Origin: a virus | Virus record (IMG/VR): IMGVR_UViG_3300027777_000002 | Location: 1-64,000 of that record | Direction: 5' to 3' (one strand) | Length of the DNA stretch: 64,000 nt | Shown: piece by piece, positions 2,882 to 59,833 of the stretch | How positions within the stretch are numbered: the first letter of the stretch is position 1 | How the letters are laid out: every line of letters starts with the position of its first letter | Translations under genes and position numbers: made by a program | The notes under the pieces: generated by a model | Databases searched by the model: none | The model's input: the letters and a program-made list of their open reading frames with translations, nothing else | Told to the model about the DNA's origin: nothing

Positions 2882-3754
2882 CTAGAAACTAAGATTGGAT
2901 AGGATTGCATCAACGTCTTTCTTAACTGCGTGGCGAGTATCTAAGTCCTTACGCAGATCGCTTAACTCCATGCCGTCAATAGCGTTGTGTAACTTGATGC
3001 GTGCGTCTTCTAAGTCTGCATCTCCTGTGATGTTTAAGTCCTTGGCTAGACTGCATAACTCGTTGGCAGTATCTAACAGGCTAGCGTGGAACATACGAGG
3101 TTGTGCTTTCTGTCCCGCATAGTCAACAGTCAGACGATCAGACATACGCTTGAGGTGATCTTTGAGTCGTGTCTTGATGTCGGACATAGCGTGCTCGATG
3201 CGCTCATCAGCTAGCTTTGCTAACTTGTTTTGTAACTCTGCTTGTGCATCATTACCTACATCTACTCGGAAGTCACCCGAGGTAGGCACAGGCATATAGT
3301 TAACTCGGAACTCGAAGCGGTGCTTGATGTCGTCAGGTGTTGGATACTCGTTGCGGTTGAACATATCACCGAGAGCCATAGCCTGTGCAGTAATCAAGGT
3401 AGGATAAGTAACTACGAAATCATCTACCAACGCATTGAACTCATCCTCGTAGTCTTGCATACGCTGATTGAACTCCATGAACTTAGATGTGGTCAGCAAG
3501 CGCAAACCTGAGTCAGACCAAGGCAACGTAACGTCATACATATAAGTGCGAATACTACCTACGCATTGGTTGATTGTTTCTAACTCAGGGCGACCAGCGA
3601 GTAAGTTCTTGTTAACTCGAGCCGCACCTTTACTGCCTGCACTCTTACCGATCAATACTTCCTCGGTTGTTGTCTTGTCTAGCTTGCGTGCAGTCCATTG
3701 GCGAACATTAACTTCTACCAACATAGCACAAGTATCAATATTAAAGCGTGTCAT
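2882..3754 (-). CDS. DUF3150-like protein of a MoxR/VWA triad, 290 aa
   Basis: I assign this to the DUF3150-type family from its layout: an N-terminal VNVRQWTARKLDK segment, the central LPWSDSGLRLLTTSKFMEFNQRM block and a long helical C-terminus (residues ~170-285) that should form coiled coil. It lies downstream of a VWA/metallopeptidase gene and a MoxR-like ATPase, spaced 14 and 9 bp and each with its own AAGGAG. In other phages and bacteria the same three families occur together, which suggests one complex, perhaps a chaperone or remodelling machine. No enzymatic motif is visible in this member. Confidence 0.7.
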   Translation of the reverse strand: MTRFNIDTCAMLVEVNVRQWTARKLDKTTTEEVLIGKSAGSKGAARVNKNLLAGRPELETINQCVGSIRTYMYDVTLPWSDSGLRLLTTSKFMEFNQRMQDYEDEFNALVDDFVVTYPTLITAQAMALGDMFNRNEYPTPDDIKHRFEFRVNYMPVPTSGDFRVDVGNDAQAELQNKLAKLADERIEHAMSDIKTRLKDHLKRMSDRLTVDYAGQKAQPRMFHASLLDTANELCSLAKDLNITGDADLEDARIKLHNAIDGMELSDLRKDLDTRHAVKKDVDAILSNLSF

Positions 3755-3768
3755 GTAATTCTCCTTTG

Positions 3769-4971
3769 TTATGAATAGATACGAACAGTTTTACCCTTGT
3801 TGGACACGAATGAATCGTTGTCCACTACACCAAACAGAATCGGACAGTCGGGTAATATGTAGTCTGATTCTATGTAGCCGTCTGACAGAATGATGGTAGC
3901 CTTGGGCTTGATCTTGTGCTTGGTCATATACTCCGATACACAAGTAAGTCGTGTGCCACCACCACCATTGGGCTGTAACAAGTCAGGTATGCGGTGATAG
4001 TCTTGCGGTTTGAATATCTGCTCACCTTCGATGTCGCACTCCCACCATAGCACACGCACTTGCTCAGGCTTGACGTTCTCACAGATGCGAGCAATCTCAC
4101 CGAACACAGTCCCATACAAACCCATCATGGAACCTGACGTATCACAAGCTACTACTAACTCGCCTGTTGATTCGCTGAAGTGTGATGGCATGAGGATACC
4201 CTGTGGTAGTAAGCGCTTGTTAGGCGGTGCAAAGCGAGAGTAGTCATCACCCTCACATAGCGTAGTGATGAAGTCACGCATATGGTCACGCCAGTTGGTG
4301 TCACGCTTTTGTGTAAGTCTATCTAGCGCACTACCATTCTTGCCGTTGCCACGATCTTGCAAACGCTTCTGCAATATCTTGCCTTGATGTAACGCTTCGC
4401 TAATCTCCTGTGCAGTCTTCTCGCCTATCGCCTCGGCTAGCTTGCCCATGATGTGATTGTCTAACGGCTCACCACCCTCACCATTACCCGCCTCAGGGTC
4501 GCCACCCTTCTCCTCGCACTCTTTGATTAAGTCTTGCAACACCTCAACGAATGACCAACCGAAATACTTCTTATCGAGTAGAGGTGGGATTGTGGTTGTA
4601 TGCTCGACAAAGCTATGCGTTGGGTCTGTTTCCTCGATCATGCCGTTGACTACATAATCCATAGCCATGTTACATAAGCGAGGATACTTCTTGGACAACG
4701 CAATGTGAGCAGAGCAATGATGTAACGCTTTGTGCATTGACTCATGCAACACCAAGAAACGTAACTGCTTGCGGTTCAACGGCTCGATAAAGCTAGGCGC
4801 ATACCACACGTTGCGACCATCAGTCCCCGCAGTCACTACGTTCTCGTCATACACTACGTCACCCACATACACCACACCTGATAGTGTGGCGAACAATGGG
4901 CTATTACTGATGTCGACGTGCGCTGATACGATACGATCGTTAAGCGCCATCTTTTCCCATGTGCTAGACAT
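3769..4971 (-). CDS. VWA-like metallopeptidase (DUF2201 type), 400 aa
   Basis: Two domains are visible. The N-terminal part (residues ~10-125) contains a zincin motif HESMH at 76-80 with further histidines at 84-85. The C-terminal part (~265-400) is a von Willebrand A domain with the MIDAS signature DTSGS at 277-281 and a later LSDGY loop. An acidic, glycine-rich linker lies near residues 155-172. This matches the DUF2201 pair of N-terminal peptidase-like and C-terminal VWA domains. It is sandwiched between the MoxR-like ATPase and the DUF3150-like gene, so it is the likely VWA partner of that ATPase. Whether it cleaves anything is unknown. Confidence 0.8.
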   Translation of the reverse strand: MSSTWEKMALNDRIVSAHVDISNSPLFATLSGVVYVGDVVYDENVVTAGTDGRNVWYAPSFIEPLNRKQLRFLVLHESMHKALHHCSAHIALSKKYPRLCNMAMDYVVNGMIEETDPTHSFVEHTTTIPPLLDKKYFGWSFVEVLQDLIKECEEKGGDPEAGNGEGGEPLDNHIMGKLAEAIGEKTAQEISEALHQGKILQKRLQDRGNGKNGSALDRLTQKRDTNWRDHMRDFITTLCEGDDYSRFAPPNKRLLPQGILMPSHFSESTGELVVACDTSGSMMGLYGTVFGEIARICENVKPEQVRVLWWECDIEGEQIFKPQDYHRIPDLLQPNGGGGTRLTCVSEYMTKHKIKPKATIILSDGYIESDYILPDCPILFGVVDNDSFVSNKGKTVRIYS

Positions 4972-4980
4972 ACGTTCTCC

Positions 4981-6099
4981 TTATTTAGTTGTGAAGTAAA
5001 TCTTGTTATCTTGAAGCATGGATTGGAACGGCTTGACAGTCACGAACGTGGACACACGACTAGACTGTGCAAGGTTGTGGCAGAACATAGACTGCATCTC
5101 CTTACGCATACGCAAGACATACTCGCACACACCCTCGGCTTCCTCTCTGCTATTGGTCTGCGTGATGCACTTGAGAACTGTAATGATTTGTGCAACAGGA
5201 TTCTCAGGCACAGGGCATGACTTGGGTTCTTTGACTATGCGAGAGAACTGCGGTGTCTGCTCACCGAACTTGATGAAAGCCTTGAGAGCCTCGGCACTAG
5301 CCTCACCGATAGTGCCTGACAAAGACGCTAGCAAAGTCGGCTCGTCCATACCATCCTTGCTATACACGATGTCCGATGCGCCATGCAGAGAGCGTGGAGT
5401 TACATACGAAGTCTGTGCGATAGATGGATTGAAGATGTGCTGATTGTGTGCTTCCATCTTCTGACCATGATACTTACCGCCATCGTGGTAGTCGATGAAG
5501 CTATCAAACATCTGTGGGTGCTCATCAGTAAACGCAATAACCTCAGGAGATAAGCCACGATCAATAGCCCACTCTCGCCACTCGGGTTGTGTAGGCTTAC
5601 GCATCTTGACAAACACTAAGCGGTTACGCAAGTGCGCTTGAATCGAATCGCCCAAACCCTCGATAGATAAGTTGGTTGCACAGAACACTACGCTACCCTC
5701 GGGCATGTGATAGTTGCCTACCCTACGCTCATACACGATTGGTGCAAGCACGTCCTTGATATACTGCCGAGCCTTGGCAATCTCATCTAAGAACACAAGT
5801 GCGGGTCGTGCGCCATTGATACCTTTCTGATTGTCCTTGTGAACACCGAAGCGCTCGTTAGGTAACTCACGAGATACACCCTTCTCACGATCAATGTCAG
5901 GCATCCACACCGAGCCGTCAGATAACTGCGTGCAATCAATCGGGTCAACGTGAACGTGGTTGGCAAAGAACGGGTCGTTAGCTAAGTGATAGAACAGACC
6001 AGTCTTACCGATACCATTCTCACCCTCAACAATGATGGTGCGCTTGTGACCTACTGCCTTGATGAGTTGTGATACTTGCTTGAATGAAAGCATTGTCAT
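4981..6099 (-). CDS. MoxR-like AAA ATPase, 372 aa
   Basis: This is an AAA-type ATPase with Walker A GENGIGKT at 26-33, Walker B LVFLDE at 101-106 and a sensor-like FCATN around residue 147. Its size and the VWA gene just downstream place it near the MoxR/AAA_5 group, which works with VWA proteins in remodelling complexes. A 140-bp gap with repeated GAGTTGTGATACT words precedes it, so it may head its own transcription unit with the two genes downstream. Confidence 0.85.
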   Translation of the reverse strand: MTMLSFKQVSQLIKAVGHKRTIIVEGENGIGKTGLFYHLANDPFFANHVHVDPIDCTQLSDGSVWMPDIDREKGVSRELPNERFGVHKDNQKGINGARPALVFLDEIAKARQYIKDVLAPIVYERRVGNYHMPEGSVVFCATNLSIEGLGDSIQAHLRNRLVFVKMRKPTQPEWREWAIDRGLSPEVIAFTDEHPQMFDSFIDYHDGGKYHGQKMEAHNQHIFNPSIAQTSYVTPRSLHGASDIVYSKDGMDEPTLLASLSGTIGEASAEALKAFIKFGEQTPQFSRIVKEPKSCPVPENPVAQIITVLKCITQTNSREEAEGVCEYVLRMRKEMQSMFCHNLAQSSRVSTFVTVKPFQSMLQDNKIYFTTK

Positions 6100-6238: not shown

Positions 6239-7210
6239 TTAGCTATACCACTTGCGTGGGATAGAGTCTTTGAACTGCCCCCAAGGTGTCTTGACTGTGC
6301 CTGTTTTCATACCGCTAATCTCAAGCACTCGGTTTACTAACGACTTCTTGAACTCGTCTGCTGTGATCTCGTTGCATATCTCACGCATCTTGAGGTTGTT
6401 AGCATCTATCTCCTCGGGTTTCTTACCCCATGTATGGAACAAACTACCTGACCAACGATCACCCTCAGGCACATAGTTATATATCCTATGGCTAGCAAGA
6501 ACGTCCATCACACCCTGACCTAGATCAAGGAAGTATTGGACAAAGTGTGGGTTATCAACCTCTAACTCGCTATCTGTGGCAGAGTGAACCCAACGGCGAT
6601 AGTCCTCAATGAACACAGGCTCTTTATGTTGCGTGCCAAATGGTGCGCCGTAGTCATCCTTGAAGGTAGCATGATCTTTGTATTCGTCTAGCCTGAACAT
6701 GGCTAGCGTGAGGAGTGTGTCTAGCTTGGTCTTGAAGTCCTTGCGCTTTTGCTTATCCTCGTTTGATGATCTGTATGTGTAGATGTCGAGGTGCTTGGAC
6801 TTATCTACGATCAGCTTACCGAAAGAATCAAACCACAAAGTTGCGCTTGGTTCGTTGTCTTGATAACCGCCTTGCACATACGGCACACATACTTGCTTGC
6901 CCTCGGTAGTTATTTGGTGGTAGTAGTTCAAGCCGTAGTCATACATAAAGATATTGGTAAGTTGACTACTGTAATACCGCATCTCTACCTTGCGTGTGCC
7001 ATCAGGTAGCGGTGGAAAGAACTTAGCCACGTTGGTGTTGTAAAGCCTGTAATAGATAGCGCCCGTTGCATCTTCTTTGTGGATACCCTTGTGCCAATTG
7101 CTTACGCCGTTAAGGTAGCGTGGGTTATCTGAATACTTCTTCCACTTCTGACTACGCTTTGGTGCTTTGCTGTTTTCGTAATGCTGTAATGCTTCTTCGT
7201 ATGTTCTCAT
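6239..7210 (-). CDS. hypothetical protein, 323 aa
   Basis: The start is the ATG at 7210, which has AAGGAG upstream and overlaps the TGA of the previous gene; a longer version to 7240 is unsupported. The protein (MRTYEEALQHYENSKAPKR...) is aromatic-rich and soluble, with a mix of helices and strands and no nucleotide-binding, metal or membrane motif that I recognise. Its place next to the ATPase triad may mean a related role, but no domain evidence supports this. Confidence 0.7.
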   Translation of the reverse strand: MRTYEEALQHYENSKAPKRSQKWKKYSDNPRYLNGVSNWHKGIHKEDATGAIYYRLYNTNVAKFFPPLPDGTRKVEMRYYSSQLTNIFMYDYGLNYYHQITTEGKQVCVPYVQGGYQDNEPSATLWFDSFGKLIVDKSKHLDIYTYRSSNEDKQKRKDFKTKLDTLLTLAMFRLDEYKDHATFKDDYGAPFGTQHKEPVFIEDYRRWVHSATDSELEVDNPHFVQYFLDLGQGVMDVLASHRIYNYVPEGDRWSGSLFHTWGKKPEEIDANNLKMREICNEITADEFKKSLVNRVLEISGMKTGTVKTPWGQFKDSIPRKWYS

Positions 7211-7881
7211 ACCATCTCTCCTTCTTCGTTGAACTTCCAATCGTTTGCTTCACATGCTTCTATTAAACTTGCTTCGCTTGTTAAGTATTCATACTCCTCC
7301 CTAAGTTGTTTGTATAGTTCATCTGCATAATCCTTTGCGCTTTCAAATGCGGCTTGCTCTATGTCGTTAGGATCTGTATATGAAAAGTCGGTTGATCTGA
7401 TTAGGTTGTGTAAGTCTTTGTATTGCATACCTTCAAAGATGGACGGCTTTGTTAAGTAGTGGTTTGAGTTTTCTACATCTGAACAGTCTACATCTACCCA
7501 ATCCCAACCTACGCAAGTCATGGTGTTGCTATGCGAGTAGTGATTGCTTCTTGTATGGATACTGAAATGCTTATCGCAAAAGTCTTCGGCAATCAAAGCG
7601 CACCACGCATCTCTAGCTATACTGTCCTCGGTATGCGTCTTGAGCCATGTCGCTACATCTACCTGACCTTCCCAACAAGCGCCATCACCTTGTGAGTAAA
7701 AGCCTGTGAAGTTCATCTTGTCAATGACAAACCCTAGCGCATAGCCTTCCTCTTTGAATCTCTCGTAGGTATCTTCATACCAGTCATCCCATATGCCATG
7801 CTCACACCACCACGCTTTTACTTTCTCCTTTGCGTTGTCGTCTAGTTGTTCGTATGTATAAGTCGTTTCTATGGTTTCCAT
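7207..7881 (-). CDS. hypothetical phage protein, 224 aa
   Basis: The start METIETTYTYEQL at 7881 has AAAGGAG upstream; the GTG extension upstream runs through a palindrome and is rejected. The N-terminus (YEQLDDNAKEKVKAWWCEHG followed by W/Y/D-rich sequence) is typical of a common but uncharacterised phage family. The protein is strongly acidic with many aromatic residues and a few cysteines. A 19-bp palindrome lies in its 5' leader, so it may be under the control of whatever recognises that element. Confidence 0.7.
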   Translation of the reverse strand: METIETTYTYEQLDDNAKEKVKAWWCEHGIWDDWYEDTYERFKEEGYALGFVIDKMNFTGFYSQGDGACWEGQVDVATWLKTHTEDSIARDAWCALIAEDFCDKHFSIHTRSNHYSHSNTMTCVGWDWVDVDCSDVENSNHYLTKPSIFEGMQYKDLHNLIRSTDFSYTDPNDIEQAAFESAKDYADELYKQLREEYEYLTSEASLIEACEANDWKFNEEGEMV

Positions 7882-7898
7882 ACTCTCTCCTTTGTTGT

Positions 7899-7917
7899 GT
7901 GGGAATAAATCCCACAC
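7899..7917. promoter_or_regulatory. 19-bp palindrome copy 1 (TGTGGGA-N5-TCCCACA)
   Basis: This is a perfect 7+5+7 inverted repeat; here the arms extend to 8 bp (GTGTGGGA/TCCCACAC, 7897-7917). It is in the leader of the 224-aa gene, about 15 bases before its Shine-Dalgarno. Three further copies have the same arms and the same 5-base spacer. It could be a DNA operator or an RNA hairpin. Confidence 0.65.
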
Positions 7918-7923
7918 TTTTGT

Positions 7924-8613
7924 TTAGTTAAACGAGATGGTTGCGGTGCTTAGCTTCTCCCGTAGTATCTCCTCGACCTTCTCTTGCACCATGTCATCTA
8001 GGCGATCATCAACAATGCTTTCAATCTCGCTAGACACATCAACATGATCTTCCAAACAGAAGTCACCGAAGTGGTTCTCGACTGCCCGTTCGACCTCGTA
8101 ACTAAAGTCGTGGTCATCAACCAATTCATCTAGCTTTTCATCAACCTTGTTTGCAAACCAATCGGCTTGCTCAAGCACAGTTTCCACAGCATCGACCAGA
8201 CCTTCTGACACTGGTTGGGCTTGTGGTTTGTATTGCTCTACGCTTAGCTTGACGATTGCTTGAATGGTAGAGGTTAGCGTGATGAATAAGTTCTGCATTT
8301 CTAAGCTATTACCCTGTATTTCCTCAAGTGGTTTGTGGAATTGGGTCATGTCAATCGGGGTATACTGCGCCCCTGTTGCGCCTTGTATGGTTTCTAATAC
8401 TGCGGTCTTGCCTATGCCAATGTAGCCGTCCATTGCGGTAGCTACTGCCTGTGCGTTTACTTCCTGTTGTAATGCTTGCTCCATAAACTCCTCCTTCGTT
8501 GCGGGTTGAATGTTGTCGAATATCTTGCGGTTCTCTAGCGCTTGCGTTAGCGCCTCAAACGCCTCATCTTCTTCTTTAGTTACTGCTAGGTCCTGCATTG
8601 TGAATGTTGTCAT
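7924..8613 (-). CDS. acidic helical hypothetical protein, 229 aa
   Basis: The start MTTFTMQDLAVT at 8613 has GAGGAG upstream, inside the end of the previous gene. The C-terminal half (residues ~140-225) is a very acidic, mostly helical region rich in Val/Asp/Glu and probably coiled coil. A GYIGIGKT string at 63-70 resembles a P-loop, but no Walker B or AAA/kinase context follows, so I do not call it an ATPase. Function unknown. Confidence 0.65.
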   Translation of the reverse strand: MTTFTMQDLAVTKEEDEAFEALTQALENRKIFDNIQPATKEEFMEQALQQEVNAQAVATAMDGYIGIGKTAVLETIQGATGAQYTPIDMTQFHKPLEEIQGNSLEMQNLFITLTSTIQAIVKLSVEQYKPQAQPVSEGLVDAVETVLEQADWFANKVDEKLDELVDDHDFSYEVERAVENHFGDFCLEDHVDVSSEIESIVDDRLDDMVQEKVEEILREKLSTATISFN

Positions 8614-8614
8614 G

Positions 8615-8779
8615 CTAGTTCTCCTCTTGTTTTGCGTAGTCCAATACATCTTCTTTAAACATCTCAATGGGGTATTTGCCGTTGATTAGTTCAGTAAGTA
8701 GATCAAGGAAATCATCTACCCCTAAGTTATCGCTACCAATCCATTGTTCTATTTGCTCTTTAGTTATTTCTTTGCTCAT
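8615..8779 (-). CDS. hypothetical protein, 54 aa
   Basis: This short gene (MSKEITKEQIEQWIGSDN...) starts at 8779 overlapping the TGA of its upstream neighbour and ends two bases before the next ATG. It is acidic and probably all-helical. Tight coupling on both sides is the main support. Function unknown. Confidence 0.65.
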   Translation of the reverse strand: MSKEITKEQIEQWIGSDNLGVDDFLDLLTELINGKYPIEMFKEDVLDYAKQEEN

Positions 8780-8970
8780 TGCTCTACCCTCCATCCTTCT
8801 TCTTGCTTAACGTATTTGGCGATCTCTATCGCATTTAACGGGTCTTGTGCTACTACATTTAGCACATACTTGACTCCGTCTTCGCCTTCGGCATACACCT
8901 CGTGCATCACATACTCCTCGATGCTCTCCTTATCAATGCACCTACCCATAAAGTTACTTAACTTGCTCAT
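8776..8970 (-). CDS. hypothetical protein, 64 aa
   Basis: The product (MSKLSNFMGRCIDKESIEEY...) has a beta-alpha pattern with the string VLNVVAQDPLNAIEIAKYV, much like small single-domain phage proteins of unknown role. It overlaps both neighbours by 4 bp. Confidence 0.65.
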   Translation of the reverse strand: MSKLSNFMGRCIDKESIEEYVMHEVYAEGEDGVKYVLNVVAQDPLNAIEIAKYVKQEEGWRVEQ

Positions 8971-9386
8971 GCTAATACTCCTTCTTCGTTGATTACTGCG
9001 GTTAATTTGTCATCATCTACACATACATCTATGGTTCTGCTGATACTTGTATAGTCCCATAGGTCGTCATACTCCCCGTCCTCTGTGATTTCTATGTCCT
9101 CTACTTCCTCACCAATGCGGGTGAACCGATACCCCGCACCATCATCACCATATAACTCGACCGCCTCTAGATAGAGATCGGTCATGGCTTTGACAAACCC
9201 ATACGACTCATACCACTTGACATCATCAGCGTAATAGAACAGCTTATTCGTCTCCAACTTTTTTGTTTCCTTAAGTGCCTCGTTGATGTCCTCGTCTTTC
9301 TTGGCTACTTGTATGGATAAAAACATATCCCTCTGCGCCTCGTCTTTGAACGCTATGACTACGGCTACTTGTGATCTATATCCCAT
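8967..9386 (-). CDS. conserved phage-type hypothetical protein, 139 aa
   Basis: I start it at MGYRSQVAVVIAF (9386), which has CGGAG upstream. The MGYRS-x-VA opening is typical of a phage family that I know only as hypothetical. It has an N-terminal strand, a helical middle (EDINEALKETKKLE), then acidic beta-rich sequence. No catalytic motif is visible. Confidence 0.7.
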   Translation of the reverse strand: MGYRSQVAVVIAFKDEAQRDMFLSIQVAKKDEDINEALKETKKLETNKLFYYADDVKWYESYGFVKAMTDLYLEAVELYGDDGAGYRFTRIGEEVEDIEITEDGEYDDLWDYTSISRTIDVCVDDDKLTAVINEEGVLA

Positions 9387-9618
9387 TTGTATGCTCCGTT
9401 TTCGCATTGTTGATCTCCATTAGTTTCTTAATGGTGTCGTCCGCTAAATCTAAATACGCATCAAGCTTATCTCTGCCGTATTCGCTACGCATGTGATTAA
9501 GCGCCTTGCTTGTCATGGGGTCTGACATAGCACGCTTACAACTCTCGAATGTGCCGTATTTAATATCAGCCACTAGCGATAGTGCGTTCTCGTAAAACTC
9601 CCCTATATCCATGCTCAT
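9376..9618 (-). CDS. hypothetical helical protein, 80 aa
   Basis: The ATG at 9618 overlaps the TGA of the upstream gene and is preferred over a longer in-frame version. The product MSMDIGEFYENALSLV... is all-helical. It shares the string YGRDK/YGRDF and a similar layout with the gene immediately upstream, suggesting the two are distant paralogues. Confidence 0.65.
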   Translation of the reverse strand: MSMDIGEFYENALSLVADIKYGTFESCKRAMSDPMTSKALNHMRSEYGRDKLDAYLDLADDTIKKLMEINNAKTEHTNGI

Positions 9619-9878
9619 TCTTCCCATCCTTCCTGTATGCGGTTGCAAAACTCATAGATCACTTCGCCTATGGCATCTTCTAGATCACGCATGAAGTCAC
9701 GCCCATACTTACTTCCATAACTCACTAACGCACTACTCTGTTCTTCTGATCTAGCTTGATTGCCGTAGCCCTCGCAATCGTCTGTATATATGCGTGCTGT
9801 GATGCAATGCACTATGTCTTGCACATCTGTGCTTACTTCTAACTCTCTAGCCATTTGCTTTTCAAAATCGTCCATCAT
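9615..9878 (-). CDS. hypothetical helical protein, 87 aa
   Basis: The product (MMDDFEKQMARELEVSTDV...) is acidic and helical, with the segment SYGSKYGRDFMRDLEDAI resembling a segment of the downstream gene. It overlaps the upstream 54-aa membrane gene. Unknown function. Confidence 0.65.
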   Translation of the reverse strand: MMDDFEKQMARELEVSTDVQDIVHCITARIYTDDCEGYGNQARSEEQSSALVSYGSKYGRDFMRDLEDAIGEVIYEFCNRIQEGWEE

Positions 9879-10039
9879 TCTTCTCCTTGTGCTGACTGCT
9901 CGCCTAATAAAAACCCAAACCCAAACATAGATACTCCGAAGCCTACTACATACAGTAGACCCGCCTCATGGTATAGATACGAGGCACATAGCGTTGCGGT
10001 TGCAACAATGATTGATAAAGCTAAACTGAAATACATCAT
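9875..10039 (-). CDS. small two-helix membrane protein, 54 aa
   Basis: This gene starts MMYFSLALSIIVATATL at 10039 with AAAGGAG upstream and ends overlapping the next ATG. Two hydrophobic segments (residues ~4-24 and ~28-45) predict an inner-membrane hairpin with a polar Gln/Glu tail. Small early phage membrane proteins of this type often target host envelope processes; that is inference. A 19-bp palindrome lies about 35 bp upstream. Confidence 0.7.
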   Translation of the reverse strand: MMYFSLALSIIVATATLCASYLYHEAGLLYVVGFGVSMFGFGFLLGEQSAQGEE

Positions 10040-10074
10040 GGTGTTTCTCCTTTGGTTGTTTTACTGCTTAGTTG

Positions 10075-10093
10075 TGTGGGATTTATTCCCACA
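10075..10093. promoter_or_regulatory. 19-bp palindrome copy 2
   Basis: TGTGGGA-TTTAT-TCCCACA, the same arms and spacer length as copy 1 but with the spacer inverted. It lies in the 5' leader of the 54-aa membrane protein gene. Six bases away is the 12-base word TGACACTGGTTG at 10098-10109. Confidence 0.65.
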
Positions 10094-10125
10094 GTTTTGA
10101 CACTGGTTGGGGCGAGTAGCTTGCC

Positions 10126-10593
10126 CTATTTAAATAACTCACGGCGGTTGTTACTGTTCTTTGATGCGTAAGGTATGCTGTGATAGCGTTGCGTGTAGTC
10201 TGTGCGTAGTTGCGGTTGTATATAGTCAGACCAATGCTTTTTCTTTTTGTCATGGTTCGTGGGTGTTGCCTCTCGTTGTATCTTTAGTGAGGTTAGTATT
10301 CCTTTCGTTTGTTGTAGTAGGTCAAGGTAATCAGTAAAGAAACAGAATAGTTCGGGGTTGTGTTGTTCGTGGTATTTGAGGTTAGCCCTTACTGATTTGA
10401 TTTCTTTTGTTAGGGGTTCGATTAACTTTGCCCATCTTCGTAGCCTGATCTTGTTCTCTACCCTCGCCGTATTCCTTAACTTCTTTTGCGACGCTACTCT
10501 TTCTTTGATGATGGTGATGATGTGCGGTGGTAGGTTTCGTTTGAGTAAGCGGTTATGCAGTTGGTTAGGTGCTAGGTCTATGTATCTTTTCAT
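10126..10593 (-). CDS. basic hypothetical protein, 155 aa
   Basis: This strongly basic protein (MKRYIDLAPNQLHNRLLKR...) has an Arg/Lys-rich central helix region (RLRRWAKLIEPLTKEIKSVR) and a Lys-rich C-terminus. It looks like a nucleic-acid-binding protein, but no named domain is recognised. It is the first gene leftward of the AT-rich gap, with an AGGAC ribosome site. Confidence 0.65.
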   Translation of the reverse strand: MKRYIDLAPNQLHNRLLKRNLPPHIITIIKERVASQKKLRNTARVENKIRLRRWAKLIEPLTKEIKSVRANLKYHEQHNPELFCFFTDYLDLLQQTKGILTSLKIQREATPTNHDKKKKHWSDYIQPQLRTDYTQRYHSIPYASKNSNNRRELFK

Positions 10594-10943
10594 GGTTTTG
10601 TCCTACTTGTTTAAAAAGTGTCCACCAATTATACCTATTTAGCATACATAGTGGACGCCCGCTAAGCCTTTAAGTATATGGTGTTGAGCAAAAAGCGGTC
10701 AAATGTCCAGCGATTTCGGGGAGAGAATAAAACAAGCCCAAAGGATAAAGTTCAGAATGTCCACTTATATATAGCCTATATATATAATTAAATAAAAATA
10801 AATATATATATATACATTTGGGGGTGAAGTGGACAGGACATATATAGATAAAGGGTTTGCGGTCGTCCATTATGTTGGCGGAGTGGTATAGGGTTAGGCT
10901 TTTTGTTTTTTGCACCAAACAAGTGCCTAACCCCAACAACAAA
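10594..10943. other. AT-rich non-coding region, possible replication origin
   Basis: This 350-bp gap has no credible gene. It holds a 60-bp tract of almost pure A/T (10767-10815 is nearly all TATA steps) bounded by the perfect 9-bp inverted repeat TGTCCACTT (10758-10766) / AAGTGGACA (10827-10835). The same hexamer recurs as GTCCAC (10620-10625) / GTGGAC (10651-10656). A 9-bp inverted repeat GGGTTAGGC (10891-10899) / GCCTAACCC (10925-10933) closes the right side. An unwinding element flanked by protein-binding repeats would suit an origin; a strong promoter region is the alternative. Confidence 0.5.
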
Positions 10944-11171
10944 CTAAACACCCGCTTTGTCCCACTCCTTTCTATGTATCTCAGCAAGCCTTACATTGGT
11001 CATAGCGACCCATTCGCCATCACCTTGATACCCCTCCCTCAACTTCTTAACGGCATTGATAGCGGTCGTTAAATGGTCGTGGTGAGGCTTGCTCTTGCTA
11101 GGTCTTTTGATCTCCATAACAAAGCCGTTGTGCATACGGACTACGAGGAAGTTAGTTGGGTTTGCTTTCAT
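10944..11171 (-). CDS. hypothetical protein, 75 aa
   Basis: The start MKANPTNFLVVRMHNG at 11171 has AAGGAG upstream; the longer in-frame GTG version reads through the palindrome and is rejected. The product is basic, with an early beta strand and a helical second half (HDHLTTAINAVKKLREG). Function unknown. Confidence 0.65.
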   Translation of the reverse strand: MKANPTNFLVVRMHNGFVMEIKRPSKSKPHHDHLTTAINAVKKLREGYQGDGEWVAMTNVRLAEIHRKEWDKAGV

Positions 11172-11181
11172 TTGATTCTCC

Positions 11182-11346
11182 TTAGTGAGTTGTGTGGGAT
11201 TCTTTCCCACAGTTAGGGTGATACTCGTTTAATGCCACTTCTACTTCGTCCTTGCTCATGTCCAACAAGCGAGCTATCATTTTTGGTGAGTAGCCGTTGT
11301 CATACATGGCACAGATTGATTCGACTAGGTTTTTCATTGCTGACAT
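11182..11346 (-). CDS. possible small HTH protein, 54 aa
   Basis: The frame MSAMKNLVESICAMYDNG... runs 54 codons with AGAAGGGA upstream. The segment GYSPKMIARLLDMSKDEVEVAL reads as a helix-turn-helix like those of sigma-region-4 or Trp-repressor-type proteins. The C-terminal codons contain palindrome copy 3, so the gene overlaps a possible operator. It is a candidate regulator of the palindrome family, though this is speculative. Confidence 0.6.
   Translation of the reverse strand: MSAMKNLVESICAMYDNGYSPKMIARLLDMSKDEVEVALNEYHPNCGKESHTTH
11193..11211. promoter_or_regulatory. 19-bp palindrome copy 3
   Basis: TGTGGGA-TTCTT-TCCCACA. It lies within the last codons of the 54-aa HTH-like gene and in the leader of the 75-aa gene downstream, again about 10-20 bases before the Shine-Dalgarno. 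Confidence 0.65.
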
Positions 11347-11486
11347 AAATAATCCCTTCTGTCAGCTAAAATCCAAAACAAACGCCTGACCCCCATGTAT
11401 TTCTTGCGTTTGGGGTTGCGTTCCCTACTTACTTTGTAGCGTGGGTGTTTCAGAGTGTGGGCTTTCCACAAGTATTTGATTTCCAT
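11334..11486 (-). CDS. basic hypothetical protein, 50 aa
   Basis: This short ORF starts at the ATG at 11486 with AAGGAG upstream and overlaps the next gene by 13 bp. The product MEIKYLWKAHTLKHPRYK... is very basic (RERNPKRKKY) and probably binds nucleic acid. Function unknown. Confidence 0.6.
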   Translation of the reverse strand: MEIKYLWKAHTLKHPRYKVSRERNPKRKKYMGVRRLFWILADRRDYLCQQ

Positions 11487-11496
11487 TACATTCTCC

Positions 11497-11640
11497 TTAT
11501 GGGCGTGTGTTAATCATCTTGAACTGCGTGCTTAGCCTGTCCCATACTTCACCCGCTTCCTCTAGACCATACACATCAGTCTTGAGTATGAAAGCGGTTG
11601 ATGGGTTTGAATCGGGTAATACATAAAAAATTGAATACAT
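11497..11640 (-). CDS. hypothetical protein, 47 aa
   Basis: Starting at 11640 with AAGGAG six bases upstream, the frame MYSIFYVLPDSNPSTAFILK... ends with a TAA that overlaps the Shine-Dalgarno of the following gene. It reads like a small beta-beta-alpha unit. A longer frame through the same DNA was rejected because it has no ribosome site. Confidence 0.6.
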   Translation of the reverse strand: MYSIFYVLPDSNPSTAFILKTDVYGLEEAGEVWDRLSTQFKMINTRP

Positions 11641-11665
11641 TTCATTCTCCTTAGTGAATTAGACA

Positions 11666-11705
11666 GAGAGTCGCACCGCAATGAAGCCTCGCACGCACGA
11701 CTCTC
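11666..11705. repeat. hairpin in intergenic leader
   Basis: GAGAGTCG (11666-11673) and CGACTCTC (11698-11705) form a perfect 8-bp stem with a GC-rich 24-base loop that can fold further. There is no T-tract on either strand. It is between the 154-aa gene and the 47-aa gene and could be an RNA processing or regulatory structure. Confidence 0.5.
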
Positions 11706-11720
11706 CCAAACTTCTTTGTC

Positions 11721-11755
11721 AAACTGCATTACACAAACTGCATTACACAAACTGC
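11721..11755. repeat. 14-bp tandem repeat at a gene end
   Basis: The unit AAACTGCATTACAC occurs twice in tandem followed by a half copy AAACTGC. The repeat spans the stop codon of the 154-aa gene, so loss or gain of a unit would leave the C-terminus nearly unchanged. It is a likely slippage duplication. Confidence 0.7.
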
Positions 11756-12207
11756 TTAAGCAACTTGAGTTCGATAGCCAACTCGTCAAGTCGTTCCTGA
11801 ATCTCCGACTTCTTAGCTGTCTTAACGAACTTAGTAACCTTAGCCTTGATGCGATCGACTGGCGTTACCTTGCTTGCCTTACGAACTGTGGGATTCTGTC
11901 CCACACTTTTCATCAACGGGAAACCCTTGCGTAAGATATCCCTAGCGTTTTGCTCCGCTTTACTGCCATGAGAATCAAACCCTAGCAAGCCTTTGTTAGC
12001 TCCTTGCTCCATTACCTTTGGCACTACTCCATACTTCACACCGATAAGAGTCGCAACCGAATTGCGTATCTCTATTTGCTCCGCAGGCTTTGCCTTGTTA
12101 AACAATGGTGTTAGCTCCTTGAGAGCCTGCTGGTATGAGGTAGTAGCCTCAATCAATAACTCAAACTTGTTTAGGAAGTTTGATACTGCTTTGCTAATTG
12201 CTTTCAT
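11743..12207 (-). CDS. hypothetical basic protein, 154 aa
   Basis: This is the first gene of the leftward arm, with AAGGAG upstream of MKAISKAVSNFLNKFELL. The protein is helical and Lys/Ala-rich, with a basic region (RIKAKVTKFVKTAKK) near the C-terminus. It contains palindrome copy 4 within codons ~100-108. I see no known domain; a DNA-binding role is possible from charge alone. Confidence 0.65.
   Translation of the reverse strand: MKAISKAVSNFLNKFELLIEATTSYQQALKELTPLFNKAKPAEQIEIRNSVATLIGVKYGVVPKVMEQGANKGLLGFDSHGSKAEQNARDILRKGFPLMKSVGQNPTVRKASKVTPVDRIKAKVTKFVKTAKKSEIQERLDELAIELKLLKQFV
11887..11905. promoter_or_regulatory. 19-bp palindrome copy 4, inside a gene
   Basis: TGTGGGA-TTCTG-TCCCACA lies within the coding sequence of the 154-aa gene (codons for SVGQNPT). 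Preservation of both arms and the 5-base spacer inside a reading frame argues that the element itself is selected. Confidence 0.6.
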
Positions 12208-12259: not shown

Positions 12260-12283
12260 GTGTCGAACAAACTATCTCGACAC
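12260..12283. promoter_or_regulatory. 7+10+7 inverted repeat, candidate operator
   Basis: GTGTCGA and TCGACAC are perfect inverted arms separated by 10 bases, a spacing that fits a dimeric repressor site. It lies just upstream of the left-arm leader. Confidence 0.45.
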
Positions 12284-13037: not shown

Positions 13038-13661
13038 GTGCTACTAGACCATCTAGTTTCAGCAAAAGCAGCCGACTACGCTCCGGAAACCCTACCGGAC
13101 GACACCCTATTCACGCCTTTAGATAAGGCAAACACCGTACAAACCCTAAATGCGCAGGTAAAAACAACTAGTTGGTTAGACCAGTTTGATGACGAAGACG
13201 AAGTTGTATTAGAAAAAGCACAACAAGAACGAGTTAGCGACACTTTCTCAAGCCTTGTAGCCCAAGATCCCAACGCCAAAGACAAACTACTAACGCTAGA
13301 GATGCCAGAAGAGGTAAAAAGCGTGGTTAGCATGGTCACGGCGTATCAATGGAAGTTTGTAGAGCAAGCAAATGAGCTGCGAAGCATGGCAGTTACAAAA
13401 ATAGCCAAGGAAACTGACCATCCGGATGCCCGAATACGCCTTAAAGCATTGGAATTGCTAGGAAAAGTGACGGAAGTGGCACTATTTACAGACAGAGTTG
13501 AAGTTAAGAAGACCGAAATTAGCGATGAAGACTTAGATGCGCAGATTAAAAAGAAGCTAGAGAAGTATATGGGCGTAGTAGATGTTGTAGATGCGCAGCC
13601 GGTTGAAGAAGAAGACGAAGTCGGTGTGGAAAAAGTAATAAAACCAAAAGAAAATACATGA
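13038..13661 (+). CDS. terS: putative small terminase subunit, 207 aa
   Basis: The start is a GTG at 13038 with AGGGA upstream; no better ATG exists. An acidic N-terminus (FDDEDEVVLEK) precedes a central helical block with DHPDARIRLKALELLGKVTEVALF, a pattern common in small terminases of T7- and P22-like environmental phages. The tail (residues ~175-207) is acidic. It recognises and delivers phage DNA to TerL. Support is mostly position: it overlaps the TerL start by 4 bp and begins the late operon. Confidence 0.75.
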   Translation: MLLDHLVSAKAADYAPETLPDDTLFTPLDKANTVQTLNAQVKTTSWLDQFDDEDEVVLEKAQQERVSDTFSSLVAQDPNAKDKLLTLEMPEEVKSVVSMVTAYQWKFVEQANELRSMAVTKIAKETDHPDARIRLKALELLGKVTEVALFTDRVEVKKTEISDEDLDAQIKKKLEKYMGVVDVVDAQPVEEEDEVGVEKVIKPKENT

Positions 13662-15178
13662 ACCTCGACTTTCTAACCCCTCAAGAAGCTATGGCAGCAC
13701 GTATGGCGCTCAAAGATATGAACCGAGCGGAGAAAGAGGCGTACCTAGGGCTGTTGGAGGAAAAAGAACAACGGGCGCACAAAAAGAAGGCGATGACAGA
13801 CCCAATTGAGTTTGCCAAATACGTGTATCCAAATTTCAAAGTAGGCCCACACCACAAAAAACTAGCAAAAATTTTTCAAGATGTAGTAGAAGGCAAAAAA
13901 AAGCGTGTAATCATAAATATTGCACCAAGGATGGGCAAATCGGAGTTTAGTTCGTATCTGTTTCCGGCATACTTTCTTGGGCAGGACCCTAATAAAAAAA
14001 TAATCATGGCTACGCATACCGCAGGCCTATCTGAAGACTTTGGTCGGAGAGTGAGAAATTTAATTGAATCAGATGAATACAAAGAGTTGTTCCCAAATTC
14101 AATCGTCGCAGACGATCAAAAAGCCGCTGGTAAGTGGTCGACTGGTGCTGGCGGGCAGTATTACGCTGTGGGTGTTGGGGGTGCCTTGGCAGGACGTGGT
14201 GCAGATTTATTTGTTATTGATGATCCTCATTCTGAGCAAGACATAAAGGCTAACAGCCGGGCTACGTTTGATAATGCGTGGTCTTGGTTCCAAACCGGCC
14301 CTTTGCAGCGTTTGATGCCGGGCGGGGCGATTGTGGTGATTATGACCCGTTGGTCGTTAATTGATTTGACTGGGCGGTTGGTAGATTTCACCATAAAAAA
14401 CCCTGAAGCTGAGCCTTGGGAAGTGGTAGAGCTGCCGGCAATCCTCCCTAGCGGTAAATCATTGTGGCCTGAACAATGGCCTTTGGAGCAGCTAGAAGCT
14501 AAGAAACTGCAGATGGATCCTCGGTATTGGAACGCGCAATACATGCAGCAGCCGACATCAGACATGGCGGCATTGATCAAAAGAACGGACTGGAGAGTGT
14601 GGGAAGCGGACGAACCCCCTACCTGCGAGTACGTCATACAGTCTTGGGATACGGCGCACGAAGTTAAAACTACATCTGACTACAGCGCTTGCACAACTTG
14701 GGGTGTTTGGTACAACGAGGAGGACAACATGTCCCCCAACCTCATCCTACTTGACGCTTTTAAAGACCGCATGACATTCCCAGAACTCAAAGAAATAGCC
14801 CTTAAACATTACAACGAGTGGAAACCAGATGCGTGCATTATTGAGAAAAAAGCAGCAGGCGCCCCGTTAATTCAAGAACTTAGAAGAATGGGTATTCCCA
14901 TCCAAGAATTTACCCCGAGTAGAGGGAATGATAAGATTGTGCGTTTAAATGCAATAGCGGACTTATTTACCTCAGGTAAAGTGTGGGCGCCAGACCGCCG
15001 CTGGGCTAGAGACGTGATTGAAGAACTTGCGTCTTTCCCTGCTGGCGAGCACGATGACTTTGTTGATACGACAACCCAAGCGCTATTGCGTTACAGGCAG
15101 GGTGGGTTTGTTAGTTTAGACAGCGACGAGAAAGACGATTTAACCCTCAAATACAGACGAAAGGCAGCGTACTACTAA
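13658..15178 (+). CDS. terL: large terminase subunit, 506 aa
   Basis: This is the DNA packaging motor. The N-terminal ATPase has a Walker A-like APRMGKSE at 89-96, a Walker B LFVIDDP at 184-190 and a coupling MTRWS at 229-233. The C-terminal RNase H-like nuclease shows SWDTA (Asp331), IIEKKAAG (Glu396) and HDDFVD (Asp466/467). The length is typical of the family (Terminase_6). It translocates DNA into the prohead through the portal encoded two genes downstream. Confidence 0.95.
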   Translation: MNLDFLTPQEAMAARMALKDMNRAEKEAYLGLLEEKEQRAHKKKAMTDPIEFAKYVYPNFKVGPHHKKLAKIFQDVVEGKKKRVIINIAPRMGKSEFSSYLFPAYFLGQDPNKKIIMATHTAGLSEDFGRRVRNLIESDEYKELFPNSIVADDQKAAGKWSTGAGGQYYAVGVGGALAGRGADLFVIDDPHSEQDIKANSRATFDNAWSWFQTGPLQRLMPGGAIVVIMTRWSLIDLTGRLVDFTIKNPEAEPWEVVELPAILPSGKSLWPEQWPLEQLEAKKLQMDPRYWNAQYMQQPTSDMAALIKRTDWRVWEADEPPTCEYVIQSWDTAHEVKTTSDYSACTTWGVWYNEEDNMSPNLILLDAFKDRMTFPELKEIALKHYNEWKPDACIIEKKAAGAPLIQELRRMGIPIQEFTPSRGNDKIVRLNAIADLFTSGKVWAPDRRWARDVIEELASFPAGEHDDFVDTTTQALLRYRQGGFVSLDSDEKDDLTLKYRRKAAYY

Positions 15179-15732
15179 TGTTAAAACACTTTTATTCCTA
15201 CACTCCAAAGGCTATTCCTAAAGAAATGTGTGAGTATTTAATTCAAACAACACCTTGGGATAAGCGTTTTGATGCCCAGTTATCTGAAGATAATACGGAT
15301 TTGTTTGTAGACGACAATATTAGAAAAACAGATGTAGTCTTCCTAAACCCACTCTCAACCATTGGCTGCATACTACAGTCGTACATAACAACGGCAAATA
15401 AAATGGCGGATTGGAATTTTGACATTAGCAAAATTGAGGATGTTCAAGTGGGTTGCTACCAACCCGGCGGGCATTATGATTGGCATATTGACAGCTTTGT
15501 TCCCAATAATGACCGACAACAGCGTAAAATATCAGCAGTAGCTTTTTTAAGTGATCCTGACTCGTACGACGGCGGGGTCTTTGAATTAGAAGTTGCGCCG
15601 GGTATTCCTGAAAGAATTCCGCAGGGCAGTATTATTGTTTTTCCGTCAGTACTTAAACATAGAGTAACCGCTGTTGAAGATGGCGTACGGTTTTCAGCAG
15701 CTTGCTGGGCATCAGGTCCGGCGTTTAGATAA
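15178..15732 (+). CDS. 2OG-Fe(II) oxygenase (PKHD/PiuC-like), 184 aa
   Basis: The double-stranded beta-helix signature is complete. HYDWHID gives H103 and D105, LKHRV gives the distal iron ligand H161, and R171 in GVRFSA is placed to bind 2-oxoglutarate. Such prolyl-4-hydroxylase-like enzymes hydroxylate proteins or small molecules. It is inserted between TerL and portal, with its ATG overlapping the TerL stop, and is co-expressed with late genes. Its substrate is unknown; modification of a capsid or host protein is plausible. Confidence 0.85.
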   Translation: MLKHFYSYTPKAIPKEMCEYLIQTTPWDKRFDAQLSEDNTDLFVDDNIRKTDVVFLNPLSTIGCILQSYITTANKMADWNFDISKIEDVQVGCYQPGGHYDWHIDSFVPNNDRQQRKISAVAFLSDPDSYDGGVFELEVAPGIPERIPQGSIIVFPSVLKHRVTAVEDGVRFSAACWASGPAFR

Positions 15733-59569: not shown

Positions 59570-59833
59570 TTATTTACGATTACATTTTCTCATTGCTTCT
59601 TCCGATGTTGCGCTAGATGCAAGAATAATTAATAGGTTTTCTACACTCTTACGATATGCTGGTGATACCTCGGACCCGCCAAACCAGTTATAAATTGATT
59701 GTCTTGTTGCGCCTGTGTATTCTGCAATTTTTATTACAGGGAAGTCCAACTTAATAGCCCAACGACCTAGTTGATTACCTAGCGTCTTTGGGGCGCTTGA
59801 TGTTGTTTGTCTTATAGTTTCTGAATACGGCAT
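59570..59833 (-). CDS. HTH DNA-binding protein, 87 aa
   Basis: The segment LGRWAIKLDFPVIKIAEYTGATRQSIYNWFGG (~23-55) is a Cro/XRE-like helix-turn-helix. The C-terminus is helical and may dimerise. It lies directly before the primase-helicase gene and behind a 115-bp gap, so it could autoregulate the replication genes. It is one candidate to bind the 19-bp palindromes. Confidence 0.75.
   Translation of the reverse strand: MPYSETIRQTTSSAPKTLGNQLGRWAIKLDFPVIKIAEYTGATRQSIYNWFGGSEVSPAYRKSVENLLIILASSATSEEAMRKCNRK

Follow-up and report, generated by a model that had tools for sequence, protein, structure and literature searches.

Dispersed palindromes in the early arm of a phage and a candidate phage protein that may read them

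Which factor recognises a short palindrome that recurs through the early region of a phage genome, and what could such sites be for? The question is raised by a 64,000-nt stretch of the virus record IMGVR_UViG_3300027777_000002 (positions 1 to 64,000, hereafter the window), in which TGTGGGA-N5-TCCCACA is present in exactly four exact copies, every one of them in the leftward early arm. We propose that the four palindromes are operator-like sites on double-stranded DNA (dsDNA) for a dimeric protein encoded by the gene 11743-12207. Co-variation between residues of this protein family and bases of the sites makes this reading probable.

Palindrome families before the terminase gene

The original prediction had described four exact copies with a 5-bp spacer, confined to the leftward arm, and this is borne out by the scan of the window and by the full 66,558-base record, which holds the same four copies. 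The start positions given as 10075, 11193 and 11887 are correct, whereas the copy placed at 7899 begins at 7898. Allowing up to three mismatches yields one extra match, at 51314 with three mismatches, which is the chance level (1.83 expected in all), and the expectation for GTGGGA-N(3-9)-TCCCAC in shuffled sequence is 0.00. Identical arms with variable spacers, also predicted, are seen across all four copies; in transcript sense the spacers read TTTAT, ATAAA, AAGAA and CAGAA, those of sites 1 and 2 being mutual reverse complements. The gene map agrees with the placements claimed, namely two leaders, one overlap of a gene end with a leader and one intragenic copy. Site 1 (7898..7916) lies in the leader of the early gene 7207..7881 (minus strand; PHROG 5162, function not assigned), 16 nt before its ATG, and site 2 (10075..10093) in the leader of the small early gene 9875..10039 (minus strand), each with a Shine-Dalgarno (SD) sequence shortly downstream. 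Site 3 (11193..11211) covers the 3' end of a helix-turn-helix (HTH)-like open reading frame (ORF) at 11182-11346 together with the leader of the early gene 10944..11171 (minus strand). Site 4 (11887..11905) lies within gene 11743-12207, where it supplies the codons for residues 102-107 (VGQNPT) in a predicted poorly ordered linker.

A query of viral contigs with the 11743-12207 protein alone gave no match, and relatives were therefore reached through the terminase large subunit, TerL. A scan of the viral collection yielded at least 596 TerL-encoding stretches, and 215 loci, the window included, were gathered by TerL similarity; most of the phages concerned are uncultivated. Palindrome families were counted as perfect inverted repeats with arms of 6 and a spacer of 3-9 in the stretch before TerL, leaving out 51 of the 215 loci with less than 1.5 kb upstream. 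A family of at least three palindromes was found in 94 of the 164 remaining loci (43 of 59 with more than 6 kb upstream, 33 of 44 with 3-6 kb and 18 of 61 with less than 3 kb). After the TerL start, in a stretch of up to equal length, none of the 164 loci has a family of at least three copies; this control was shorter than the upstream stretch in 69 of the loci (676 kb against 860 kb in all), and in the equal-length subset of 95 loci there are 46 families upstream and 0 downstream. First-order Markov resampling produced a family in 0 of 820 cases. No family above two copies was seen in the stretches of DSL-LC04, HTVC027P, 023Pt_psg01 and two contigs of metagenome-assembled genomes.

Removing two of the 94 loci for mixed spacers (one of which, L297, was reused in the base-covariation test) left a clean set of 92, with 35 arm hexamers and 38 arm-spacer types, some of them register shifts of one palindrome. 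The copies in one phage share the same arms but not the same spacer or flanks; between phages the arms differ. Whole scans of longer records located 4 sites in a 64.5-kb record, all within 6.3 kb before TerL, 5 sites in a 42-kb record, all before TerL, and 6 in one of 63.9 kb; four of the six precede TerL, and the two close to the opposite end would belong to the same arm if this record is circularly permuted.

The expectation that relatives carry the element at equivalent places holds for a palindrome with different arms but not for the exact sequence. The exact 19-mer is absent from all fetched TerL-relative loci; in viral contigs it occurs in 98 stretches, as a single copy each, and none of these encodes a TerL relative. 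Where the in-gene site of the window encodes VGQNPT, the aligned stretch of the same gene reads VEKTST in relatives whose arms are GTGGAG. In a clade of phages with either GGACAG or GGATAG arms, the palindrome within a neighbouring gene alters the encoded peptide (RRTETCP versus RRIETYP), so that the DNA and not the peptide is kept. A site lies in or just before the gene of the 11743-12207 family in 83 of 89 loci (68 have one within the ORF and 27 one at most 120 nt ahead of it, and 6 have neither); ORFs were taken from the first possible start, and some "inside" sites may be leader sites. Two GGATAG phages, L150 and L189, each keep one GGACAG palindrome, apparently a relic of a switch or of recombination.

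A candidate reader and its putative specificity residues

The candidate site-reading protein (11743..12207, minus strand, 154 aa) is encoded by the leftward gene nearest the divergent region, which itself contains site 4. ORFs lying no more than 4.5 kb before TerL were searched with an iterated profile, excluding 38 of the 215 loci in which TerL starts before base 1000. Of the 177 loci searched 155 have a family member, and among the 92 clean loci 89 have one in the equivalent position. In all 89 loci the members start 628-1837 bp before TerL. Distant subfamilies share a C-terminal motif, and since they can be aligned mainly there, position carries part of the argument. A tblastn search with four family members against the phage collection (E ≤0.01) gave no match for any of the four.

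The clade with GGACAG (C) and GGATAG (T) arms links this protein to the sites. In its 20 genomes the two classes interleave on the TerL tree, with three changes by Fitch parsimony, and the pairs L125/L127 and L189/L209 have TerL proteins that are 99% identical and different arms. TerL itself has no class-separating column (11 C and 5 T genomes; 74 polymorphic columns). When 20 ortholog groups present in at least 12 of the 20 genomes were screened, only the 11743-12207 family covered all 20 genomes with perfect columns, of which it has two: one is D in 13 of 13 C genomes and G or T in 7 of 7 T genomes, the other K in 13 of 13 C genomes and M in 7 of 7 T genomes. Five of the 20 groups have a perfect column; the four besides this family have one column each in 12-15 genomes and comprise an ORF at +2649 (9 C, 3 T) and three shadow-frame groups. 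Ortholog groups were labelled as genes by strand and position only, and some are probably antisense frames. Groups whose perfect column is based on few genomes may have a reader role, which this screen alone does not decide.

A second line of evidence comes from the subfamily with the helix motif A-x-K-x-W (28 loci, 24 unique sequences, 119 alignment columns; L274 as reference), in which mutual information was calculated between alignment columns and base positions counted from the dyad. Before the base test L271, L208 and L293 (spurious regex hits) and L134 and L294 (doubtful families) were removed and L217 was added; half-sites for the tests of bases 5 and 6 were entered by hand from the arm tables. 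For base 5 the top column of the 119 is the helix residue K86 of L274, which is occupied by 17 K, 1 Q and 1 R where the base is G, by 3 R and 1 M where it is A and by 1 M where it is C. The top z reaches 5.5 and 5.8 in this subfamily, compared with 3.0 for TerL columns. Base 5, counted from the dyad, is likewise where the C/T switch of the GGACAG/GGATAG clade falls. At base 6 the highest-ranked column is D82, which precedes K86 by one helical turn (G: 12 D, 5 E, 2 N; A: 2 V, 1 H, 1 Q; C: 1 V). Here TerL columns score higher (top z 6.3 versus 4.8 for D82), which speaks against our reading; this covariation may stem from phylogeny and was not counted as independent evidence.

The rules were then applied to 48 fresh loci from unused contigs, 64 of 112 new loci having been set aside as pieces of used contigs. 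Nine of the 48 carry the A-x-K-x-W subfamily and six could be scored, of which five agree with the base-5 rule and six with the base-6 rule, L376 and L413 being close to training members and not independent. One locus, L407, pairs T and A with Q and G, a combination absent from the earlier loci. L335 contains one TTTGGGACA palindrome, in line with its helix; its two-copy CAGAAA family was judged spurious post hoc, and if it is counted base 5 fits and base 6 fails. L359, without a helix match, was not scored. In L394, which has no family, the helix predicts GTGAGAC, and one exact GTGAGAC palindrome is present (2956-2974); further sites at 3262 and 3633 are hybrids of one TGGGAC half and one GTCTCA half each, and this locus holds no exact TGGGAC or TGATAC palindrome. 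The site set of L394 looks as if caught mid-transition.

The AlphaFold2 model of the window protein (47 sequences; mean pLDDT 87.4, pTM 0.58) has predicted helices at residues 2-38, 41-59, 83-95, 116-130 and 133-153 and a short beta pair at 63-64 and 75-76. The predicted linker in which site 4 is encoded is poorly ordered (pLDDT below 50 at 104-106 and 108-111). By analogy with relatives, helix 83-95 (codons 11923..11961, minus strand) would be the recognition helix, a role that we infer from the co-variation. In the L125 model (pLDDT 84.6) helices span 61-69 and 77-95; the second of these contains K84, and D73 lies a few residues ahead of it. A PDB sequence search up to E 1 gave no match, and the Pfam and PHROG matches of the family are scattered and weak, none of them convincing.

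We infer from these sequence comparisons an autoregulated dimeric DNA-binding protein that would control early transcription in a stoperator-like manner. Each subunit would place one predicted helix (about residues 83-95 in the window protein) into the major groove of one half-site to read the base roughly 5 positions from the dyad, possibly together with the adjacent one, and the C-terminal helical hairpin could serve in dimerisation. Binding at its own gene, in leaders and in early coding stretches would repress or road-block early transcription, and binding at its own gene would result in autoregulation. Because the sites lie within an operon-like leftward array and within genes, blocking of elongation is at least as likely as blocking of initiation. 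Specificity could shift by one or two residue changes or by replacement of the DNA-binding part, and the sites would follow; with such private specificities, the regulator of one phage would not act on the sites of a relative. The likeliest roles are early shut-off, followed by exclusion of related co-infecting phages. Tentatively, we go one step further and speculate that the arms form a private, fast-switching operator code, in which single residue exchanges (such as K to M) re-address the early-arm network and which gives these apparently virulent phages self/non-self discrimination against co-infecting relatives, a repressor-type immunity to superinfection that needs no lysogeny, under negative frequency-dependent selection. 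If true, the family would be a new family of DNA-binding proteins with a readable specificity code, and dispersed palindromes would gain a directly testable explanation, as a case of operator networks repeatedly rewritten in phages that seem not to be temperate. Near-identical phages with different palindromes would then be natural experiments that point to the reader protein and the residue.

Several further observations weigh against this reading. Among the 59 loci with more than 6 kb upstream, 16 hold fewer than three copies, some despite carrying the protein, and L174 and L175 have no detected family though the gene is present. In a first residue screen of 48 ortholog groups with at least 4 C and at least 3 T genomes, 15 groups hit the top score; the 11743-12207 family did so with 20 genomes and the other 14 with 7-13, and a portal-like protein and a 393-aa early protein among the latter remain candidates. 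The base-5 rule has exceptions in L158 (R with G), L216 (Q with G) and L412 (Q with G); L134 (C with K) was excluded as a doubtful family, and six of the 28 loci rely on two-copy families. K84 of the L125 subfamily and K86 of the L274 subfamily are about one helical turn apart, and their equivalence is uncertain. The hhalign program aligns the two subfamily profiles in the C-terminal motif only, and common descent of the DNA-binding parts across subfamilies is uncertain. Fold searches against PDB and BFVD gave no match (E ≤0.001 or Z ≥5) that would support DNA binding, an outcome that implies neither novelty nor a difference of fold. A translational role would fit too, as 39% of the sites stand just before an SD sequence and start codon, and such a regulator would be unexpected in a phage without recognised lysogeny genes. 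When helix and remainder of the protein were compared, same-arm pairs displayed only a modest excess of identity in the helix.

DNA or RNA, and other readers

Whether the palindromes act as DNA or as RNA can be addressed by their symmetry. The original prediction had left open a dimeric DNA-binding protein or a regulator that binds RNA hairpins, and of these the DNA-binding protein is supported, the orientation-free spacers favouring DNA over RNA. Among 355 unique perfect sites read in transcript sense, 138 spacers are A-rich and 122 T-rich (binomial p 0.35), whereas A predominates in the flanks (3366 A against 2501 T), and in 41 of the 92 loci one spacer occurs in both orientations. In 35 single-mismatch sites, 31 mismatches are transitions, of which 11 keep and 20 break a G-U pair (p 0.15); sites of related phages are partly dependent, which affects both the spacer and the mismatch counts. 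As the spacers have no strand preference and the mismatches no preference for wobble pairs, recognition of dsDNA rather than of an RNA hairpin is favoured. Hairpins in the leader RNA, acting through a bound regulator or on translation, termination or mRNA processing, would explain the perfect stems and the position of the sites: an SD sequence and start codon follow within 50 nt after 137 of 350 sites, compared with 917 of 7000 random positions, and most of 12 copies in the phage MinM2 (see below), judged by eye, stand between a stop codon and the next SD. Sites 1 and 4, read on the plus strand, the antisense strand of the early genes, are among 8 terminator-like matches against 4.7 expected; a promoter scan found 8 sigma-70-like sites against 11.3 expected. 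Since spacers are strand-symmetric, transitions break G-U pairing more often than they keep it, and the protein is tracked by stem bases and not by loops, we consider the hairpin explanation unlikely.

If the sites are DNA operators, the reader could be another phage protein, such as the HTH-like product of 11182-11346, which has weak HTH-like Pfam matches, or the basic protein of 10126-10593, whose family occurs in 25 of the 29 first-set loci with palindromes. This is very unlikely. The HTH-like protein, named in the original prediction as a possible regulator, clustered with only 4 other loci among the first 81 so that its cluster spans 5 first-set genomes; its homolog in 17 of the 20 clade genomes (11 C, 6 T) has no residue that separates the arm classes. 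The other HTH candidate (59570-59833) has only a weak match to the terminase small subunit. The basic zinc/coil protein of 10126-10593 had an early lead among widespread groups (within- minus between-class identity 0.14) and then failed. It was dropped because the residues that tell the classes apart are those specified by the palindrome inside its gene, and because L150 (GGATAG) and L205 (GGACAG) have nearly identical copies; no column separates the classes in 9 C and 4 T genomes. Members of this family lie near sites in 37 first-set loci, and some have CxxC pairs and are zinc-ribbon-like. The prediction of a phage-encoded trans factor as such is supported by the residue/arm co-variation, and the 11743-12207 protein is likely the reader rather than either HTH candidate.

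The same protein could bind the palindromes as centromere or replication sites (parS-like or iterons) and not as operators. In phage N15 dispersed palindromes act as centromeres, which is a precedent. No ParA-type ATPase (PF13614) was matched in 13 long records, possibly fragments, and a site in or before the reader's own gene together with the enrichment before start codons suggests gene control, so that we hold a centromere role to be very improbable. More improbable still is a host regulator as the reader, with arms that differ because hosts differ. Conceivable as this is, the arms switch between phages with 99% identical TerL and the switches are tracked by a phage protein. The least credible explanation is that the palindromes are short repeats of the REP or MITE type, mobile or homogenised, which no sequence-specific reader recognises. 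Close relatives do gain and lose sites, as one precedes the 10126-10593 homolog in L103, L104 and L140 and not in the window. Yet the copies have nothing but their arms in common, with different spacers and flanks, which copying would not yield, and in the long records scanned they lie in the early arm.

Relation to known systems and genome context

Among described systems, the palindromes of Cluster O mycobacteriophages are the closest sites, and the repressor and stoperators of Cluster A the closest co-diverging pair. In Cluster A phages (L5, Bxb1) the stoperator motif and the phage-encoded Rep diverge together, according to the available part of the source (PMC6550527). As here, there are many dispersed sites per genome, with one motif dispersed in the early region of each genome, and the site motif co-diverges with a phage protein. 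In that same portion of the source, however, stoperators are asymmetric and mostly in one orientation, whereas the sites described here are perfect palindromes with strand-neutral spacers (138 versus 122), and Rep is an immunity repressor with an N-terminal HTH, whereas our candidate reader matches no Pfam or PDB family convincingly and no lysogeny gene was found in 13 long, possibly incomplete records.

Cluster O (Corndog) carries more than 30 dispersed perfect palindromes of the 17-bp repeat TGTTCGG-N3-CCGAACA, whose function has stood unexplained in print since at least 2015, as far as the accessible part of that paper goes (PMC4351075). Judged from the same part, they resemble the sites described here in their invariant arms, in an A/T-rich spacer without clear orientation, in intergenic as well as coding locations and in phages that are not obviously temperate. 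They differ in that one motif serves the whole cluster and no reader is named there, in contrast to the lineage-specific arms and the candidate reader reported here; the window lacks the Cluster O sequence, with different arms in different phages. The SAS/ESAS repeats of Cluster K stand just before start codons of some non-structural genes and, in the section of the paper available, are non-palindromic, 13 bp long and conserved across the cluster (PMC3203893), unlike the palindromic, arm-variable sites of our loci. Among the titles and opening lines of abstracts listed by searches of the open-licence literature, none describes lineage-private palindromes with a co-varying reader in such phages.

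Two of the loci (L188 and L435) are the record of Synechococcus phage MinM2, which megablast finds identical to Planktothrix phage Pag-Yong1 across the 8 kb queried; the hosts recorded for them are cyanobacteria. It contains 20 copies of GGTTCA-N3-TGAACC in positions 1-63,000 of its 65,014-base record, 12 of them in 38,000-63,000, and four copies lie in rightward-transcribed regions. Of the leftward genes MM2_92 is the one closest to the divergent point; one copy stands 58 nt before it, and the C-terminus of MM2_92 aligns with the 11743-12207 family (E 2e-5, 34 columns, probability 77%). In contrast to this C-terminal part, the N-terminal part of MM2_92 cannot be aligned, and the TerL of MinM2 is only 45.5% identical.

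Classic lysogeny is not supported in these phages. Matches to PF00589, PF00239 and PF13614 (integrase, resolvase, ParA) are absent from all 13 long records, which may be incomplete, and HTH_3 matches occur below the cut-off only, in 2 of the 13.

In the window, the leftward early arm descends from about 12,200. Another inverted repeat, GTGTCGA-N10-TCGACAC at 12260-12283, lies in the divergent region a short way upstream of gene 11743-12207 and is a possible promoter-proximal operator. To the right of the early arm, the plus strand encodes a protein with a weak match to the terminase small subunit (13038-13661), TerL (13658-15178) and the portal and head genes, with a 2OG-Fe(II) oxygenase-like protein at 15178-15732 between TerL and portal. 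Within the row of genes at 2882-6099 there are a DUF3150 match (below the cut-off), DUF2201 (metallopeptidase-like and VWA-like) and a weak AAA match; a module like it is annotated in MinM2 as DUF3150, VWA-like and MoxR. From 12596 onward the plus strand holds a short open frame with a good SD sequence, read by eye and starting MFDFEKQYKEALEKFETLTSQTKQAYEFW, whose product may be phasin-like.

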